Shown here: positions 9,543 through 17,621 of the stretch, in pieces
Numbering within the stretch: the stretch's first letter is position 1
How the letters are laid out: every line of letters starts with the position of its first letter
NCBI GenBank assembly: GCA_022841465.1
Contig: JALHRL010000016.1
Coordinates: forward strand, 1-64,000
Source: Bacteroidia bacterium
Lineage (GTDB): Bacteria > Bacteroidota > Bacteroidia > B-17B0 > Aurantibacillaceae
Direction: 5' to 3'
Length of the DNA stretch: 64,000 nt
Program-made: the position numbers and the translations under genes
The notes under the pieces: model-generated
The model's input: the letters and a program-made list of their open reading frames with translations, nothing else
Databases searched by the model: none
Told to the model about the DNA's origin: nothing

Positions 9543-11957
9543 TTAAAACTTAAAGGTAATACCTCCCATAAAATGCAATGGTGCAGCAGGAGCCAAGAAA
9601 ACCTTTTCTGTTTTTACTCCGCCCCAAATGTAAGAATAGGTGTAACCATTGGTTTCGTAAACGGTATTGGTTAAATTGTAAATGCTAAACATAAAACCTA
9701 TTTCCTCTGAAGATTTAAATTTATACACATAATTAAATCTTAATTCTGTAACATTATAAGGTTTTATTGCACGATTATCATTTTGTGTATTATCTAAATA
9801 TTGTTTGCCAACCTGTTTATTAATCAAAGCCATTTCAAAACCCTTAAATGGTTTAATTATGAATGAAAGAGACGAAATTAAATTTGGCGAAAAAGAAATA
9901 TCTGTGTTTTTAAACAAAGTATCCTTTTGAACTCCTAAATCGTAATCATCTATAAATTCTTTATACTCCGCAATTTTATTTTTTGATACAGTAACATTTC
10001 CGGCAATGGAAATAAATTTATTTGGACTATATGCCGCTTCTAATTCTACCCCTTGCCTGTAACTATTTGGAACATTAATTCTGTTGTATGCACCCACATC
10101 GTTAACCTCTCCATTTAAAACCAATTGGTTTTTATATTGCATGTGATAAATATTTGCTTGCACCATAAATAGTTTTGATGCATATCGCGAACCCATTTCA
10201 ACATCTGTTAACTGTTCCGATTTTGGTCTGCTTTCAGGCGTAGAATTTACATAATCATTTCTATTTGGTTCTTTGTTTCCAATGGCGAATGAAGAATAAA
10301 CATTTAGCTTTTGAGTAATTTGGTAACTAATACCCGCTTTTGGATTGAAAAAAGACAAAGACGCTTTTTGCCTTGTGCTGTTTAAATTTATATCATATCC
10401 CATAAAAGAATAGTTTACTAACCTGTTTTGTAAATCTAAAAACAAATATAATTTTTCAATAGGATTATAGTTTATCTTTAAATATACGTTGGCATCTTGT
10501 TTATAAGCCGTGTTTCGGTAATATTCATAATCTATTTCTGCATTAGAAGCATATTGTGCCCACATTACTCTTCCAAAATGACCACCACTGTATTCATTAA
10601 AACCCCCACCTAGGGTTATTGCCAAATTTGAAACAGGCGTATAATTTAAATTAAATATTCCACCAACAAAATCATTGTTCAACCATAATCTGCGTATTAA
10701 ATCGGTTGAAGTAATAGTATCGCCTCCTGCAGTAACAGCATTATTTATTCCATACTCGGCAAAAGTTTCTCCTTGTTTATACTGCTCGTAATAACCACGT
10801 CCTTTGGTATAATGAGCAATTATATTAAAGTTTAAATTGTTATTTATTGTGCGCGCATAATGTAATTGGTAATTATCTTGCTGGTAATTATCTGTTTCAT
10901 TTTTATAATAACGAGGGTTGCCATTTGCATCAAAATACAAACCGGCAGGATTATCGGTTCTATTTCCTTTCTTAATTGAATCTGCATCTACATAATACCA
11001 AGCCTGATATGTTTTTTCTTTGCCTGTGAATCCAATAAATTTTAATACATCTTTTTTACCATAATATGCGGCAGATAAATACAAAGAACCCAATCTGCTT
11101 GTTGCCCTATCAATATATCCATCTGAATTAATCATAGAGGCACGTGCATCTAATGCAAATTTGTTATTTAATAAACCCGTTCCGGCTGCCAAGGTATTTT
11201 TGTAGGTATTAAATGAGCCCGCACTAGATGCAATAAAACCGTAAGCCTTAGGTTTTAAAGTATTTGTTTGAAAATTAATAGTTCCGCCAAAAGCACCGGC
11301 ACCATTAGAAGAAGCACCTACACCACGTTGAACTTGTACGTTATCTACACTGGAAATAAAATCGGGCATGTTTACAAAAAAGGTTCCTTGACTTTCAGCG
11401 TCGTTTACAGGCACTCCATTAATGGTTACATTAATTCTTGTTTGATCAGAACCGCGAATTCTAATTCCCGTATACCCCACTCCATTGCCTGCATCAGAAT
11501 TTACAACCACCGAAGGCATTTGATCTAATAAAATCAATGCGTCTTTTCCTAAATTTGTTTTTGAAAGTTCATCGCCTGTTAAATTACTAAACGCAATTCC
11601 TGTATTAGAATTAACGCGAGTTGTATTTACAATAACTTCATCTAATTGCTTGCTATCCGTTTTTAAGGTGTAATTTCTTTCTGTGTTGTTATTAATTTCA
11701 AGGGTATCCCAAACAGTAATGCAACCCAAACACTTTACTTGTACAATGTATTTGCCGGTACTTAAATTTCTAAAAACAACTTCTCCGGCTGAATTGCTTA
11801 ATGCTGCTAAATAAGTGTCTTTTATAATTACGGACGCATTAGCTAAAGGCTTTTTATTTTCATCAACCAATACACTTTTAAAGGTAAACTGTGCTTTTAC
11901 ACTAACGGTGGTTGTTAACAACAAAAACAACACATGAGTTAAACTCATTTTTTTCAT
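9543..11957 (-). CDS. TonB-dependent outer-membrane receptor under TPP riboswitch control
   Basis: 804 residues. There is a signal peptide (to about VKAQ, residue 22), a carboxypeptidase-regulatory-like domain (about 23-105), a TonB plug domain (about 115-230, with IRIRGSDQTRINVTINGVP) and a 22-strand-type barrel ending in an aromatic residue (GGITFKF). TonB receptors import bulky scarce nutrients across the outer membrane. The TPP riboswitch in its leader makes thiamine, its phosphates or a precursor the most likely cargo; Bacteroides species have TPP-riboswitch-controlled receptors of this kind. The start at 11957 gives a good signal peptide; a second ATG lies at codon 4. Confidence 0.88.
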   Translation of the reverse strand: MKKMSLTHVLFLLLTTTVSVKAQFTFKSVLVDENKKPLANASVIIKDTYLAALSNSAGEVVFRNLSTGKYIVQVKCLGCITVWDTLEINNNTERNYTLKTDSKQLDEVIVNTTRVNSNTGIAFSNLTGDELSKTNLGKDALILLDQMPSVVVNSDAGNGVGYTGIRIRGSDQTRINVTINGVPVNDAESQGTFFVNMPDFISSVDNVQVQRGVGASSNGAGAFGGTINFQTNTLKPKAYGFIASSAGSFNTYKNTLAAGTGLLNNKFALDARASMINSDGYIDRATSRLGSLYLSAAYYGKKDVLKFIGFTGKEKTYQAWYYVDADSIKKGNRTDNPAGLYFDANGNPRYYKNETDNYQQDNYQLHYARTINNNLNFNIIAHYTKGRGYYEQYKQGETFAEYGINNAVTAGGDTITSTDLIRRLWLNNDFVGGIFNLNYTPVSNLAITLGGGFNEYSGGHFGRVMWAQYASNAEIDYEYYRNTAYKQDANVYLKINYNPIEKLYLFLDLQNRLVNYSFMGYDINLNSTRQKASLSFFNPKAGISYQITQKLNVYSSFAIGNKEPNRNDYVNSTPESRPKSEQLTDVEMGSRYASKLFMVQANIYHMQYKNQLVLNGEVNDVGAYNRINVPNSYRQGVELEAAYSPNKFISIAGNVTVSKNKIAEYKEFIDDYDLGVQKDTLFKNTDISFSPNLISSLSFIIKPFKGFEMALINKQVGKQYLDNTQNDNRAIKPYNVTELRFNYVYKFKSSEEIGFMFSIYNLTNTVYETNGYTYSYIWGGVKTEKVFLAPAAPLHFMGGITFKF

Positions 11958-12010
11958 ATTTTTTATTTTAAATTAAACTAACCTTTGCAAGGGGGTTGCA
12001 TTGGTTTTTT

Positions 12011-12148
12011 AATTTTCCCTACGCAGGCATTATCCTGTTCAGGTGCACAAACAAGGCTTTTAGTAGCTCTTGCTTGTTGGGTATAATCTCAGCCTTCAGT
12101 AGTGTTGAGTTTTTAGTATTTAGTTATTACTAGTTGAACCCTATTAAT
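12011..12148 (-). promoter_or_regulatory. TPP riboswitch (THI element)
   Basis: On the minus strand the leader contains the conserved core GGCTGAGATTATACCC followed by ACCTGAACAGGATAATGCC and TGCGTAGGGA, which are the diagnostic P2/P3/P4/P5 segments of the thiamine-pyrophosphate aptamer. The 5' GGGT (complement of about 12138-12141) pairs with the ATACCC of P2, and TTAAT/ATTAA can close P1. An extended P3a arm explains the larger size. Between aptamer and start codon, a possible expression-platform hairpin (AACC, GCAA, five C, TTGC, GGTT; plus coordinates about 11980-12006) could switch expression of the receptor. The stretch from 12150 to 12276 holds nothing else I recognise. Confidence 0.93.
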
Positions 12149-12276
12149 AACTTAAAACTAATGACTAACAACTTTAAAAGAAAGCACCCCTTAAGACAGA
12201 GCAAACCTAATCATAAAAACTTAACCAACAAAAAAATCTTTTAAAAGCACATTGTATTTTGTAGTATTTTTATTGC

Positions 12277-13266
12277 ATGAAACCGAGTTTATTAAAATTT
12301 AGCGTATTTCTGGTATTACTTTTTGTGAGTAATTTGTTGAATGCGCAAAATGATATTATTAATACCCTTAAAGGCGAACAAATTATTTGCAACATTACAA
12401 AAGAAGATAGTATTAAAGTTTATTTTAAAATTGGTGGAAATATAACCGGTATTGAAGCTTCCATTTTAAGAAAAGAAATAAAATCAATTGAATATGCTCA
12501 AATAAAACAAGAAGCTCCACAGCTAATTGCAGACCCTGGATCTGAAACCATAAGTGTAGAAAAAGTTGATTATGTAAATTCAGAAAATATTATTGTTAAC
12601 CCTACAAAAGATTCCTTCACGAAAAATGGTGTATTTTTAGCAATAGGAAATGCATTACCCTTAGGAAAATTTGCAAAACAAAAATTAGACACCAATGAAA
12701 TTGGTCCGGGTAATTCCGGATACGTGGTAGGTATAGGATTTGTGCATTATACAAAAAATAATTTAGGTTTTGATATGCGTGCCTGCTATGCCAATAATGA
12801 GTTAAATGCAGCTCCCATTGCAAGTAAGTACCAGTACCATACCGACTCTGTTTGGAGTCCGGAAAAATCAAACTGGCAATCTTACAGTTTAAATATTGGA
12901 ATACTTTATCAGAAAAAATTTAAATATTTTGGGGCTTTTGCAAGATTGAGTGCAGGATTTACAACACTTAAATATCCGGATTTAAAATTAAGCATCAGTT
13001 CTAAAAATTACATACAATTTCAATCTGTAAATGCCGATGCAATAAGTTTTGGAATTGGCGGTGGTCTTTCTTACGAAGTGTTAGAAAATTTGGAAGTGAT
13101 TTTAAATGTAGATTATAATCACGCCAAATTTAAATACAGTGAAGTTTTATTTATTGGTGAAACACCAAGCGGATTAAGCACAAAAAGAATTTCAGGAACT
13201 AAAAGAGATGTAATACAAGTTTATCAAAACCTTTTTACTACACTAGGTGTTTGTTTCTGGTTTTAA
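12277..13266 (+). CDS. Putative outer-membrane beta-barrel protein
   Basis: 329 residues. A signal peptide ends near LLNAQ (residue 24). Residues 25-75 form a small domain of the kind seen in Bacteroidota surface proteins (NTLKGEQIICNITKEDSIKVYFK). From about residue 115 the sequence alternates polar and hydrophobic residues with glycines (FLAIGNALPLGKF, GFVHYTKNNLGFDMRA, FGAFARLSAGF, ISFGIGGGLSYEV) and ends in an aromatic pair (GVCFWF), typical of an 8-10-stranded outer-membrane barrel. Function unknown. It sits divergent to the riboswitch-controlled receptor and convergent with the kinase gene, overlapping that gene's end by 24 bp. Confidence 0.7.
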   Translation: MKPSLLKFSVFLVLLFVSNLLNAQNDIINTLKGEQIICNITKEDSIKVYFKIGGNITGIEASILRKEIKSIEYAQIKQEAPQLIADPGSETISVEKVDYVNSENIIVNPTKDSFTKNGVFLAIGNALPLGKFAKQKLDTNEIGPGNSGYVVGIGFVHYTKNNLGFDMRACYANNELNAAPIASKYQYHTDSVWSPEKSNWQSYSLNIGILYQKKFKYFGAFARLSAGFTTLKYPDLKLSISSKNYIQFQSVNADAISFGIGGGLSYEVLENLEVILNVDYNHAKFKYSEVLFIGETPSGLSTKRISGTKRDVIQVYQNLFTTLGVCFWF

Positions 13267-13788
13267 AAATTCGTTAACTAATTTAATTGCATTTTGTAAT
13301 CGGTTTTCGTTGAAGCCACTCACTATTTTGTAATTAGCATTTAATTGTTTTAAAAGCTGTTGATGCATTTCAAATATTTGCATTCTATCTTTTTCATTTT
13401 TTCTTTGTTCATCCTTTACCCACGCAATATCCACATCGCAAAGTAAATATAAGTTGTAATGTTGTTTTGCTAAATTATCCTCAATAAAATCAGGGGTTTT
13501 TTTAAATACAATTTCGCACCAAATTTTTCCACTTATTAATGCTGTATCACAAAACACGAATGACTTATTTTTTGCGTTCAAATTATTTTCGTGAAGCAAT
13601 TGATTTTTATAAATATCGGCAACCTGTTCTATGGTGTAATTAGAAATATCTTCTCTTTCAAAATAGGTTCTGGCAAATTCCGGAACAAACACCGTATTAA
13701 AGTGCGTTGCCAATTGCTCGCACAAAGTAGTTTTTCCGGTACTTTCAGGACCAACCAATGCAATTTTTATACTTTTCCTTTCTTCCAT
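13243..13788 (-). CDS. NadR-like P-loop kinase/ATPase (AAA_28 type)
   Basis: 181 residues. The P-loop is GPESTGKT (13-20), close to that of the ribosylnicotinamide kinase domain of NadR. Further features are VPEFARTYFE, a FCDTALISGKIWCE segment and LCDVDIAWVKDEQR, all typical of the NadR kinase-like family that is often encoded beside PnuC transporters. It overlaps pnuC by 22 bp and is the last gene of the operon. The family phosphorylates imported nicotinamide riboside to NMN. Because of the ThiE-like and TPP-riboswitch neighbours, phosphorylation of an imported thiamine-related compound is a possible alternative; this is inference. Confidence 0.8.
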   Translation of the reverse strand: MEERKSIKIALVGPESTGKTTLCEQLATHFNTVFVPEFARTYFEREDISNYTIEQVADIYKNQLLHENNLNAKNKSFVFCDTALISGKIWCEIVFKKTPDFIEDNLAKQHYNLYLLCDVDIAWVKDEQRKNEKDRMQIFEMHQQLLKQLNANYKIVSGFNENRLQNAIKLVNEFLKPETNT

Positions 13789-14312
13789 TCAAAAAATCCG
13801 TAAGCTGCCATTGTTGTAAAAAACACATTTAACACAGCAAATAACCACATATCTTTTTGTATATACAAAATTACATAAGCCAAATCTATTATTACCCAGG
13901 TTAGCCAGTTTTCAAGCCATTTGCGAGTCATCATGTACGTAGCTGATACACTTAGTGCTGTTAAAATAGCATCAAAAATAATTTTATCTCCTTTAAATTT
14001 TTTAAGTAAAAAATAATAAATCAGAAACTGAACAGCACTTGCAAAAATTAAAATTAAAATCCATTTAAGCGGAATGTGGCTCACTTTAAATTCGGTTAAA
14101 CTTTCTTTTTTCCAAAACCACCAACCATAAATGGCTGCAAAAAAATAAAAAACCTGCAAGGCCATATCGCCATACAAGCGTTCGTTATAAAATTCTATTA
14201 TTGATGCAACAACGCTAATAATTGCAAAGGGCCAACACCAAACGTTTTGTTTAATGGTAAATAAAACTCCCAATATTCCAAAAACGAGGGCAACAAAACC
14301 TAGTTCATTCAT
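13767..14312 (-). CDS. pnuC: PnuC-family vitamin transporter (NR or thiamine)
   Basis: 181 residues with about 7 hydrophobic segments. PnuC signatures are the WCWPFAI segment near residue 26 and YGDMALQ followed by AIYGWWFWKK around 48-70. PnuC members transport nicotinamide riboside by facilitated diffusion with metabolic trapping; the close relative PnuT transports thiamine. The start codon overlaps the stop of the upstream ThiE-like gene (TAATG), and the end overlaps the kinase gene. The location beside a TPP-riboswitch receptor favours a thiamine-type substrate, but the sequence alone does not decide this. Confidence 0.85.
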   Translation of the reverse strand: MNELGFVALVFGILGVLFTIKQNVWCWPFAIISVVASIIEFYNERLYGDMALQVFYFFAAIYGWWFWKKESLTEFKVSHIPLKWILILIFASAVQFLIYYFLLKKFKGDKIIFDAILTALSVSATYMMTRKWLENWLTWVIIDLAYVILYIQKDMWLFAVLNVFFTTMAAYGFFEWKKGKV

Positions 14313-14944
14313 TACTCAATTGGAATATTCAGTTCGTTGAATTTTCTTATAATATTTAAAAACTGATTACATGGGCTTTCAGCATCCCATATATAAGAAT
14401 TAAAGGCAAGTCCATGAAAACCATACTTATTACATTTTTCTATGGCTTTATCTGTAACTCCGCCTCGTGCCACTAATTTTTTGTTAGTTGATTTAATACC
14501 GGCAATTAATGATTCTTCATAAAACCCACCGTAAAGTTCGCCGGTTAAATTATTAAACACAGTGCCAATTAGATAATAATCAAAATCATGTTCCTCATTT
14601 TTATGAATATCGCCAAGGCGTTTGTAGGATCGGGTTTTAAATAACTTCCCAAATTTTAATCGCAACCTTAATCTGGTGAAAAAATATTTCCACTTTTTTG
14701 CCAAGTGGGTTCCGGTAAAATGTATTCCTTTTAAATTATACTTAGCAGCTAAAATGTGGTGAGAGTGAACTATAATTCTGTTGTGATAATGCACCGGAAT
14801 CTCATCAATATAATCACGCATTTCTTGTGTTGTTAAACGTGGTTTACGCAAGTGCAAAGTCATTAAGCCATCCTCAAACATTTTTGTAACCATGCTTGGT
14901 TCATCGGTAATAGCTTTAGAACCCGTTATAACAATTAACTTCAT
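14312..14944 (-). CDS. ThiE/TenI-like (thiamine phosphate synthase family) protein
   Basis: 210 residues with the TIM-barrel pattern of the ThiE/TenI family: LHLRKP at 30-35 (the R-x-K phosphate/pyrophosphate-binding strand), GIHFTGTHL where canonical ThiE has a G.HLGQ.D-type motif, DYYLIGTVFNNLTGE, and VARGGVTDKAIEKC for the final phosphate loop. The divergence at the GQxD position leaves open whether it makes thiamine phosphate from HMP-PP and THZ-P, or is a TenI-type or other variant. It overlaps the GGGP synthase gene by 4 bp (ATGA type) and pnuC by 1 bp, so it is in one operon. Confidence 0.72.
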   Translation of the reverse strand: MKLIVITGSKAITDEPSMVTKMFEDGLMTLHLRKPRLTTQEMRDYIDEIPVHYHNRIIVHSHHILAAKYNLKGIHFTGTHLAKKWKYFFTRLRLRLKFGKLFKTRSYKRLGDIHKNEEHDFDYYLIGTVFNNLTGELYGGFYEESLIAGIKSTNKKLVARGGVTDKAIEKCNKYGFHGLAFNSYIWDAESPCNQFLNIIRKFNELNIPIE

Positions 14945-15657
14945 TTGTTTACTTTGAAATTTACGGCCAATTTATTTAACAATAATACGTTTTTTTCTAA
15001 AGCATTCCCAACAACAATAACATTTGCACCAGCTTCTAATAGACTTTTAACTTTTTCAGCAACTTTTATTCCGCCACCCACCATAACAGGTATATCAATG
15101 TTTTTAGATACTGCACTCACCACCCTTTCAGGTACATTTTGTTTTGAACCACTTCCTGCTTCTAAATAAACTGCTTTAAAGCCTAGTTGTTCTGCAGCTA
15201 AAGCGGTGTTTACAATGTTTAAAATATTATTAGCAGATAATGGTTTTGTGTGTGTAACCTTTTGCGTTTCGCTAATGCTTCCACCTTCTATTAGTAAATA
15301 TGCAACCGGAAAAGTAGTTAAGCCAAGTTGTTTAATTTTTGATGCAGCTTTTACATGTTTCTCAATTAGGTATTCCGGATTTCTTCCGGAAAGCAAACTC
15401 AACACCAATAAACCATCTGCCTCAGCGCACAATTGTGTTTCATCTCCCGGAAATAATAATACAGGGATTTTACTTATTTGTTTTATTAATCTAACTGTGG
15501 TAGTAATGTTTCCACTATATAGTTTGCTTCCACCCACTAAAAAAAAAGAAACATTGCACGTTTCTGCCATTTTAATTAACTCCGGATTAAATTTATCGGG
15601 ATCAATTAAAACAGCAAGTTTCTGTTTTTTTTTACTTATTAGTTTTTTAATTTTCAT
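14941..15657 (-). CDS. Geranylgeranylglyceryl phosphate synthase family protein (PcrB/GGGPS)
   Basis: 238 residues. The TIM-barrel prenyl-glyceryl-phosphate synthase family is recognised by VLIDPDK (17-22), FLVGGSKLYSG, the LLIEGGSISETQ segment, YLEAGSGSK and the phosphate-binding VMVGGGIK and VIVVGNALE loops. The family joins a polyprenyl diphosphate to sn-glycerol-1-phosphate, the first step of archaeal-type ether lipids. Bacteroidota carry a group II GGGPS whose physiological role is not clear to me. The gene overlaps the upstream phosphopantetheinyl transferase by 11 bp and the downstream ThiE-like gene by 4 bp. Confidence 0.88.
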   Translation of the reverse strand: MKIKKLISKKKQKLAVLIDPDKFNPELIKMAETCNVSFFLVGGSKLYSGNITTTVRLIKQISKIPVLLFPGDETQLCAEADGLLVLSLLSGRNPEYLIEKHVKAASKIKQLGLTTFPVAYLLIEGGSISETQKVTHTKPLSANNILNIVNTALAAEQLGFKAVYLEAGSGSKQNVPERVVSAVSKNIDIPVMVGGGIKVAEKVKSLLEAGANVIVVGNALEKNVLLLNKLAVNFKVNK

Positions 15658-16228
15658 TTATTACAAATGCTAATACATAAGGTAATTGTTTCCTAAAAAA
15701 AAGTTGGAAATTTTTCATCGCATCTTTATTCTCAATTTTCCCGTTAATAATACCTTCATTCGTATCTTCAAAAGGATTAATAGAAATATGAGAACTAAAC
15801 TCTACTCCCCTTTTTCCGTTTGCTTTATATATCGCCTCTTTAGCCGCCCACAAAATTGTAAGTATTTCTAAATTATTACCCGCAAAATTTAATTCCTCTT
15901 CACTTAAAAACTTAAACTTAATATTCTGAATTTTTTCTTTCACCATCTCAATATCAACACCCGCTTCATATTGAGTATTTAAATTCACCACTAACCATTT
16001 GTGCGAATGTGAAATAGAAATTTTTTCAATTTCTCCTTCTAAATAAGGCTTATTTACCTCATTATAACACAATTTAAATTCCTTATTTTTTAGCATTTCG
16101 CCTATTAAAAAAAGTGCTCCTTTTTGCTCTAAATCTCTTTTTTCTGTAACTGAATTTTTTAACGAAAATAGCTCTAAATCAAGCATCCCCAGCCTTATTC
16201 CCTCTCTTATTTCTTCTATTTTTAACAA
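15647..16228 (-). CDS. 4'-phosphopantetheinyl transferase superfamily protein
   Basis: 193 residues. It transfers the phosphopantetheine arm from CoA to carrier proteins. The Sfp/AcpT signatures are SISHSHKWLVV (about 71-81), the magnesium motif GVDIEM (D92, E94) and WAAKEAIYK (W127, K130, E131). Length matches the short Sfp-like forms. It is the first gene of a minus-strand operon that continues through GGGPS, ThiE-like, PnuC and kinase genes. It is divergent from ahcY across a 76-bp promoter region. Confidence 0.87.
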   Translation of the reverse strand: MLKIEEIREGIRLGMLDLELFSLKNSVTEKRDLEQKGALFLIGEMLKNKEFKLCYNEVNKPYLEGEIEKISISHSHKWLVVNLNTQYEAGVDIEMVKEKIQNIKFKFLSEEELNFAGNNLEILTILWAAKEAIYKANGKRGVEFSSHISINPFEDTNEGIINGKIENKDAMKNFQLFFRKQLPYVLAFVINEN

Positions 16229-16304: not shown

Positions 16305-17621
16305 ATGGGAACCGCAACAAAAAATTTCGTTAAATACAAAGTAAAAGATATTTCGTTGGCAGAATGGGGCCGCAAAGAAATTAAATTGGCAGAAGAAGAA
16401 ATGCCCGGATTAATGTCGTTACGTAAAGAATACGGAGATAGCAAACCTTTAAAGGGTGCGCGTATTGCAGGTTGTTTACACATGACTATTCAAACAGCTG
16501 TTTTAATTGAAACATTAACTGCTTTAGGCGCAGAAGTTACCTGGAGTTCATGTAATATTTTCTCTACACAAGATCATGCTGCTGCTGCAATTGCTGCTGC
16601 AGGTATTTCGGTTTATGCTTGGAAAGGCATGAGCGCTGAAGAATTTGACTGGTGTATTGAACAAACACTATTTTTTGGCGAAAAGCAAGAGCCATTAAAT
16701 ATGATTTTAGATGACGGTGGTGATTTAACGAATATGGTGTTTGATAAATATCCTGAATTAGCTGCGGGAATTAAAGGATTATCGGAAGAAACAACTACCG
16801 GTGTTCACCGTTTATATGAGCGTATGAAAAAAGGCACTTTAATGGTTCCTGCAATAAACATTAACGACTCTGTTACAAAATCTAAATTTGATAATAAATA
16901 CGGTTGCCGCGAATCATTGGTTGATGCTATCCGTCGTGCAACTGATATTATGATGGCAGGTAAAGTTGCTGTTGTTGCAGGTTATGGCGATGTTGGAAAA
17001 GGTTCAGCTCAATCACTTTCATCGCAAGGTGTACGTGTAATTGTTACGGAAATTGATCCTATTTGTGCTTTACAAGCTGCAATGGATGGTTACCAAGTTC
17101 AAAAAATGGACAATGCAGTTAAAATTGCGGATATTATTGTTACTACAACCGGTAATAAAGATATTGTTGTTGGACGTCATTTTGAATCAATGAAACATGG
17201 TGCAATTGTTTGTAACATTGGCCACTTTGATACTGAAATTGATATGGCTTGGTTAAACAAAAATTACGGTAACACTAAAGATGTAATTAAACCACAAGTA
17301 GATAAATACACTATTAAAGGGAAAGATATTATTGTATTAGCTGAAGGCCGTTTAGTTAACTTAGGTTGCGCTACAGGTCACCCAAGTTTTGTAATGAGTA
17401 ACTCTTTTACAAACCAAACTTTAGCTCAATTAGAATTATGGACCAACACAGCAGCTTACGAGAAAAAAGTGTATGTATTACCAAAAATTTTAGATGAAAA
17501 AGTTGCTCGCTTGCATTTAGGTAAAATAGGTGTTGAGTTAGATACTTTAAACCAAGAACAAGCAGATTATATTGGCGTAAAAGTTGAAGGTCCGTTTAAA
17601 TCGGATGCTTACAGATACTAA
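16305..17621 (+). CDS. ahcY: S-adenosylhomocysteine hydrolase
   Basis: 438 residues. This cytosolic NAD-dependent enzyme splits S-adenosylhomocysteine into homocysteine and adenosine, removing the product of methylations. The sequence shows [44 protein letters not shown], the NAD-binding loop AGYGDVGKG (225-233) and the C-terminal KSDAYRY tail with its conserved Lys and Tyr that complete the neighbouring active site. Length is typical. A promoter lies upstream and a strong terminator follows, so it is probably monocistronic. The codon choice is more uniform than in its neighbours, consistent with high expression. Confidence 0.97.

Follow-up and report, generated by a model that had tools for sequence, protein, structure and literature searches.

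A probable thiamine import route in Bacteroidia in which a NadR-like kinase and ThiL stand in for thiamine pyrophosphokinase

The stretch of DNA analysed in this study, hereafter the window, comprises 64,000 nucleotides of contig JALHRL010000016.1 (assembly GCA_022841465.1) from a Bacteroidia bacterium of the family Aurantibacillaceae. Near its beginning lies a gene for a TonB-dependent receptor preceded by a thiamine pyrophosphate (TPP) riboswitch aptamer and, close by, an overlapping operon that includes genes for a PnuC-family transporter and a P-loop kinase resembling the ribosylnicotinamide kinase (RNK) domain of NadR. A comparison with other genomes of the class suggests that these genes probably encode a thiamine import route, in which the kinase acts with ThiL in place of thiamine pyrophosphokinase (TPK). 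G, L and f numbers below are our handles for genomes, loci and families. The locus contains the following features:

9543..11957, minus strand: TonB-dependent receptor, probable thiamine receptor of the OMthi/omr1 type (PF00593, PF07715, PF13715)
11999..12201, minus strand: TPP riboswitch aptamer, one arm of which has a long insert; it lies 42 nt ahead of the receptor start
12277..13266, plus strand: outer-membrane barrel protein gene between kinase and aptamer (PF13505, 26.5 bits, just below the cut-off of 28.7)
13243..13788, minus strand: standalone NadR-RNK-like P-loop kinase, proposed thiamine kinase (PF13521, 111.7 bits)
13767..14312, minus strand: PnuC-family transporter, proposed PnuT for thiamine (PF04973, 173.1 bits; cut-off 27.3)
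14312..14944, minus strand: ThiE/TenI-superfamily protein (PF02581, 36 bits; TIGR00693, 32.6 bits against a cut-off of 145.1)
14941..15657, minus strand: PcrB-family prenylglyceryl phosphate synthase, a conserved neighbour in the recurring gene order (PF01884, 120.4 bits)
15647..16228, minus strand: 4'-phosphopantetheinyl transferase, a conserved neighbour in the recurring gene order (PF01648, 37.4 bits)
16305..17621, plus strand: adenosylhomocysteinase, a conserved flank that recurs beside the cluster (TIGR00936, 639.9 bits)

The five minus-strand genes that run from the phosphopantetheinyl transferase to the kinase (16228 to 13243) overlap by 1 to 22 nt, and the receptor starts 1.29 kb downstream of the kinase end, with the barrel gene in between. 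This barrel gene is absent from the gene order that recurs in other genomes and probably lies outside the import route. The initial annotation had described an overlapping operon with ThiE-like, PnuC-like and P-loop kinase genes 1.3 kb from the receptor; the overlaps, the distance, the PnuC-like protein and the kinase are all borne out, but the ThiE-like gene is no ThiE by either score or motif. The window protein reads VHSH and TGTH at the positions of the motifs IIND and GQKD in the true ThiE of G001, a genome of the same genus and the one that was aligned. The Asn and Asp residues of these motifs have an active-site role in ThiE, and judging from its sequence the gene probably does not encode a thiamine monophosphate (TMP) synthase. 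Proteins of the ThiE/TenI superfamily without ThiE motifs recur between PcrB and PnuC in many loci.

The core of the aptamer can be read in order as GGGGTGC, CTGAGA, ACCTGA and GCGTAGGGA. The Rfam model RF00059 gives it 31.8 bits (E 2.1e-4 in 551 nt), and because this falls under the gathering score of 54.3, a scan at that score misses it. The gathering score is a curator's cut-off and no biological feature; RF00059 exceeds it in 91 of the 138 class genomes that have any match. The window aptamer is atypical in having a long insert in the arm that follows GGGGTGC. A class-specific model, R1, which was made with 24 TPP sites from the class (among them the second site of the same genome but not the window's own), places the aptamer at 11999-12201 with 63.1 bits and E 2e-14, its only match in the window at E ≤ 0.05. 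With the core motifs in order, this score agrees with the initial annotation, which had reported a clear TPP aptamer ahead of the receptor, and we take the element, on sequence grounds, to be a real though atypical TPP riboswitch. The receptor itself is 52% identical to that of L079, a locus in genome G008 of the same family, and 42% identical over 711 residues to that of L126, an operon in which a TPP site is followed by receptor, PnuC and TPK genes. One further TPP site is present in the genome, on contig 1 before a paralogous TonB receptor, so that both sites of the genome stand ahead of TonB receptors. Near this second receptor we also observed CBASS-type effector genes (L006:1464-5424, contig C1), namely E1-E2, JAB and SAVED-peptidase genes with PADLOC scores of 498.8, 177.5 and 452.9 bits.

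The kinase has 181 residues and consists of the kinase domain only, with PF13521 (AAA_28) as its sole Pfam match over the cut-off. Neither an NMN adenylyltransferase domain (TIGR01526 scores 87.1 bits against the NadR cut-off of 341.15) nor a match to the TPK catalytic domain (PF04263/TIGR01378) was found in it. Its structure model (pLDDT 93.1) is best matched among solved structures by NadR kinase domains (Z 20.4-23.1, rmsd 2.4-2.8 over 169-179 residues), followed by thymidylate kinase (Z 16.9). In the kinase tree, 70 of 72 standalone kinases of Bacteroidota lie on one side of a branch with support 87/88; outside this main group are the NadR sequences, relatives from other phyla and the long proteins of L097 and L150. 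The residue after the conserved Asp is G in all four NadR sequences and P in 52 of the 72 standalone kinases of Bacteroidota; as a diagnostic of the standalone kinase it is suggestive only, G occurring in 4 of those 72. Two-domain NadR next to PnuC also exists within the class, at L147:6948-8461 (G158), L089 (G074) and L172 (G197), and G074 and G197 hold a standalone kinase elsewhere in addition.

The window PnuC groups in the PnuC tree with members of its own family (100/99), among them the L079 PnuC that stands behind a TPP aptamer. The PnuC of E. coli groups with two NadR-adjacent PnuCs (L089 and L172) and one from a TPK genome (99/89), apart from that of the window, and the third NadR-adjacent PnuC (L147) is unplaced in this tree, whose backbone is unresolved and which includes no proven PnuT. 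The initial annotation had named firm clustering with nicotinamide riboside transporters, together with a kinase acting only on nicotinamide riboside, as evidence that would speak against a thiamine route; such clustering is not seen, as far as a tree with unresolved deep branches can tell. The context of the window PnuC is of the thiamine type, with kinase, receptor and TPP site nearby, and direct TPP control is found in L079, not in the window. Specificity of PnuC-like transporters has been read earlier from the preceding riboswitch, according to a portion of PMC7749635, and we propose that the window protein may be PnuT, carrying thiamine.

The remaining thiamine genes of the organism were sought by profile in its own genome, for which completeness is given as 100. 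TPK has no match there by two models, and TIGR01378 has none in any of the 61 genomes of the family sample. ThiC (sought in this genome only) was not found, nor was a true ThiE, the sole full-length superfamily match of 31-36 bits being the window gene. ThiL is encoded outside the window locus (322 bits), and PnuC is present as a single copy. With no TPK, ThiC or true ThiE found by profile, the organism looks dependent on external thiamine. It has a pair of receptors under TPP control and a single candidate for transport across the inner membrane, but no enzyme recognised as carrying out the first phosphorylation.

Evidence for the role of the kinase comes from its distribution. Among 149 genomes of the class, the standalone kinase (detected with profile A1) occurs in 74 and TPK in 28. 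Only two genomes, G124 and G159, have both, and in these the kinase frame is about 705 residues long and, in G124, carries DUF4301. Six matches scoring 30-35 bits are left out of the kinase counts, as are four two-domain NadR proteins (G074:C3, G158:C5, G197:C43 and, judged solely from its frame of 360 aa, G117:C22); a kinase in two pieces (G112, G068) was entered once with its bits summed. ThiE was scored as present at 91 bits or more, which gives 56 genomes, 48 over the curated cut-off and 8 under it. The 93 ThiE-less genomes divide into 66 with the kinase only, 21 with TPK only, none with both and six with neither, such that 87 of them hold exactly one of the two enzymes. In the 56 ThiE-bearing genomes the corresponding numbers are 6, 5, 2 and 43. 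At a kinase threshold of 180 bits in place of 60, there are still 0 ThiE-less genomes with both enzymes, and those with neither increase from 6 to 15. When families of ThiE-less genomes at least 90% complete are counted, 26 have the kinase only, nine TPK only, none both, four neither, and one is mixed. Eleven families include both ThiE-bearing and ThiE-less members. In seven of these (f2, f12, f21, f31, f38, f44 and f45) the kinase is present in 12 of 12 ThiE-less and 0 of 12 ThiE-bearing genomes, and no member has TPK. The remaining four families follow the pattern less closely. Every member of f1 has the kinase; in f36 the ThiE-bearing member has TPK and the other two have the kinase; and the members of f6 and f51 all lack both enzymes. 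PnuC accompanies the kinase in 74 of 74 genomes and TPK in 24 of 28, and is found in 3 of the 49 genomes with neither enzyme, one of which (G158) has NadR beside it; a partial match in G131 (23.7 bits) is left out of this count.

Gene order points in the same direction. PnuC adjoins the kinase in 61 of the 74 kinase genomes, and the order phosphopantetheinyl transferase, PcrB, (ThiE-like), PnuC, kinase, TPP site, receptor recurs with losses, often next to adenosylhomocysteinase. With at least 151 TPP sites in 135 genomes, the window's site added, a listed site is found no more than 5 kb from the kinase in at least 25 of the 74 genomes (0.23 expected by chance), in all 25 downstream of the kinase on the same strand and in G008 upstream as well. 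Of the 13 kinase genomes that have PnuC elsewhere, at least seven (G061, G068, G110, G112, G146, G148 and G180) have the kinase less than 1 kb from a TPP site. In L079, TPP site, PnuC, kinase, second TPP site and receptor follow in a row, the first aptamer standing 18 nt ahead of PnuC-kinase with 56.3 bits, over the gathering score. The fetched stretches of 50 named kinase relatives, a set that may overlap the class sample (L227 and G149 hold the same kinase), contain PnuC in 40 and a TPP site in 17; for example, both accompany the kinase in Winogradskyella wandonensis (L230) and Flavobacterium orientale (L226). The PnuC loci retrieved from the class exclude G131 and minor fragments in G018, G077 and G137, and the search of the class loci with the TPP model covered L075-L174, leaving out L175-L179. 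No TPP site was found in the searched stretches of the three NadR-adjacent PnuC loci, and of the three loci where TPK adjoins PnuC, two (L098, L126) show the order TPP site, receptor, PnuC, TPK. The latter order is described for gut Bacteroidetes in parts of PMC5613172. For kinases of other phyla we claim no TPP link, since none of L257, L260, L262, L263 and L221 has a TPP site beside the kinase.

Two further observations concern these neighbourhoods. A DUF4301 protein is encoded at L230:6532-8085, L226:5980-8094 and L121:7569-9689 (PF14134, 669.6 bits in L121); of the 50 named loci, 13 have DUF4301 either fused to the kinase or placed between it and the TPP-receptor. Its model (pLDDT 87.1) matches the UDP-glucose pyrophosphorylase 3r2w (Z 21.2, rmsd 3.4 over 332 residues), and on this modelled fold DUF4301 is an uncharacterised, nucleotidyltransferase-like partner of the kinase. 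A Flavo-1 RNA (RF01705) match of 51.7 bits lies at L133:10919-11075, about 3 kb from a TPP-preceded PnuC.

Taken together, we consider it probable that the locus is a variant of the known OMthi-PnuT thiamine scavenging route in which an unrelated NadR-type kinase and ThiL replace TPK. The TPP-controlled TonB receptor would carry thiamine across the outer membrane, and the PnuC-family protein would pass it through the inner membrane. The standalone kinase would then use ATP to convert it into TMP, trapping it in the cell, and ThiL would add the second phosphate to give TPP, so that kinase and ThiL together would do the job of the missing TPK. Thiamine as the substrate of receptor, PnuC and kinase is what we infer from these associations. 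NadR kinase domains and thymidylate kinases transfer a single phosphate; given this chemistry of the nearest families and the availability of ThiL, the product of the kinase is probably TMP. The import-and-trap route proposed by the initial annotation thus gains from the rarity of genomes with both kinase and TPK and from the aptamer before PnuC-kinase in L079. Its further suggestion that the kinase replaces TPK appears right in view of the near-exclusion and is well supported by the genome comparison, with the amendment that kinase plus ThiL, not the kinase alone, would be the replacement.

Several observations weigh against this explanation. Six ThiE-less genomes have neither enzyme (G085, of 0.5 Mb; G094; G147, 85% complete; G156; G162; G189), and the kinase also occurs in 8 of the 56 ThiE-bearing genomes, including G001 of the window's own genus. 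The close solved relatives are all nicotinamide enzymes or transporters, the main kinase group does not include two kinases of Bacteroidota (L097, L150), and the PnuC tree lacks resolution in its deep branches. Neither the Rfam scan nor model R1 places an aptamer before the PnuC-kinase operon of the window, and a TPP site was found in the fetched stretch of only 20 of the 59 kinase-PnuC loci searched. ThiL is present in 146 of the 149 genomes, including all 21 ThiE-less genomes with TPK only, so its presence alone is no argument for a monokinase, and one kinase genome (G198) shows only a weak ThiL match. Moreover, the Fisher tests on co-occurrence and TPP proximity take no account of relatedness, which is why the contrast within families is the better argument.

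Among other explanations, the same thiamine route could operate with a kinase that transfers pyrophosphate in one step and thus replaces TPK fully, with ThiL serving some other function, for instance the salvage of external TMP. In ThiE-less genomes the kinase does take the place of TPK one for one, and genomes with TPK still retain ThiL, which need not be tied to the kinase; we nevertheless think this unlikely, since the nearest solved relatives, NadR kinase domains and then thymidylate kinases, are single-phosphate enzymes. It is quite unlikely that the substrate imported by PnuC and trapped by the kinase is nicotinamide riboside, with the TPP-controlled receptor standing nearby but unrelated, although the family names and nearest solved structures suggest it and two-domain NadR does stand beside PnuC in L089, L147 and L172. 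One would not expect a kinase for nicotinamide riboside to track ThiE loss or avoid TPK; this reading explains neither pattern, nor does it account for the TPP aptamer that stands immediately ahead of PnuC-kinase in L079. In addition, G074, G117 and G197 keep a standalone kinase besides a NadR-type protein (G117 by frame length only), and E. coli PnuC groups with the PnuCs of L089 and L172, not with that of the window. Finally, import and phosphorylation of a precursor such as hydroxymethylpyrimidine (HMP), which the initial annotation had entertained, is very improbable: TPP riboswitches also control precursor transporters and a ThiE-superfamily gene sits in the operon, but neither ThiC nor a true ThiE to join the two halves was found in the genome (YjbQ was not searched for), and the operon's ThiE-like protein has no true-ThiE motifs. 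YjbQ is named beside ThiE in parts of PMC5613172.

Compared with NadR (8x7f, 6gye, 1lw7), the window kinase shares the kinase-domain fold, the P-loop and the PnuC neighbour, but it has no adenylyltransferase domain, belongs to a separate tree group and tracks ThiE loss and TPK absence in its occurrence. With TPK it would share the metabolic place, activation of imported thiamine, without a sequence match to TIGR01378/PF04263. The proposed logic, a first phosphate from the kinase and a second from ThiL, is that of E. coli ThiK and ThiL, although ThiK belongs to a different kinase family and the window kinase to AAA_28. The closest known system is the TPP-controlled OMthi-PnuT-tnr3 (TPK) system of Bacteroides, as outlined in sections of PMC5613172. 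Both have a TPP aptamer, a homologous TonB receptor, a PnuC-family inner-membrane protein and a kinase gene. In those sections, however, TPK stands where the window has the NadR-RNK-like kinase, and the window operon differs in lying apart from the aptamer and in including PcrB, phosphopantetheinyl transferase and ThiE-like genes. We found no report of a NadR-type kinase replacing TPK in the open-access literature searched, which lacks most subscription papers; annotation databases such as SEED and RegPrecise were not searched.

In summary, we lean towards the view that the standalone NadR-RNK-like kinase group is an unnamed thiamine kinase of most thiamine-dependent Bacteroidia that arose independently of both TPK and E. 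coli ThiK, and that in Flavobacteriaceae it acts beside, and sometimes fused to, DUF4301 with its predicted UDP-sugar pyrophosphorylase fold. The two outlying kinases and the six genomes with neither enzyme keep us from putting this more strongly. The prediction of a thiamine kinase is directly testable in E. coli. Since the family models score the window genes as PnuC and NadR-like, annotation by name may assign nicotinamide riboside salvage where salvage of vitamin B1 is more likely. Part of PMC12236431 describes genomes of Flavobacteriales and Cytophagales that encode ThiL and the putative receptor omr1 but are missing key enzymes of biosynthesis, and interprets them as salvagers; with a kinase supplying ThiL, the salvage route of these organisms would, if true, be complete.

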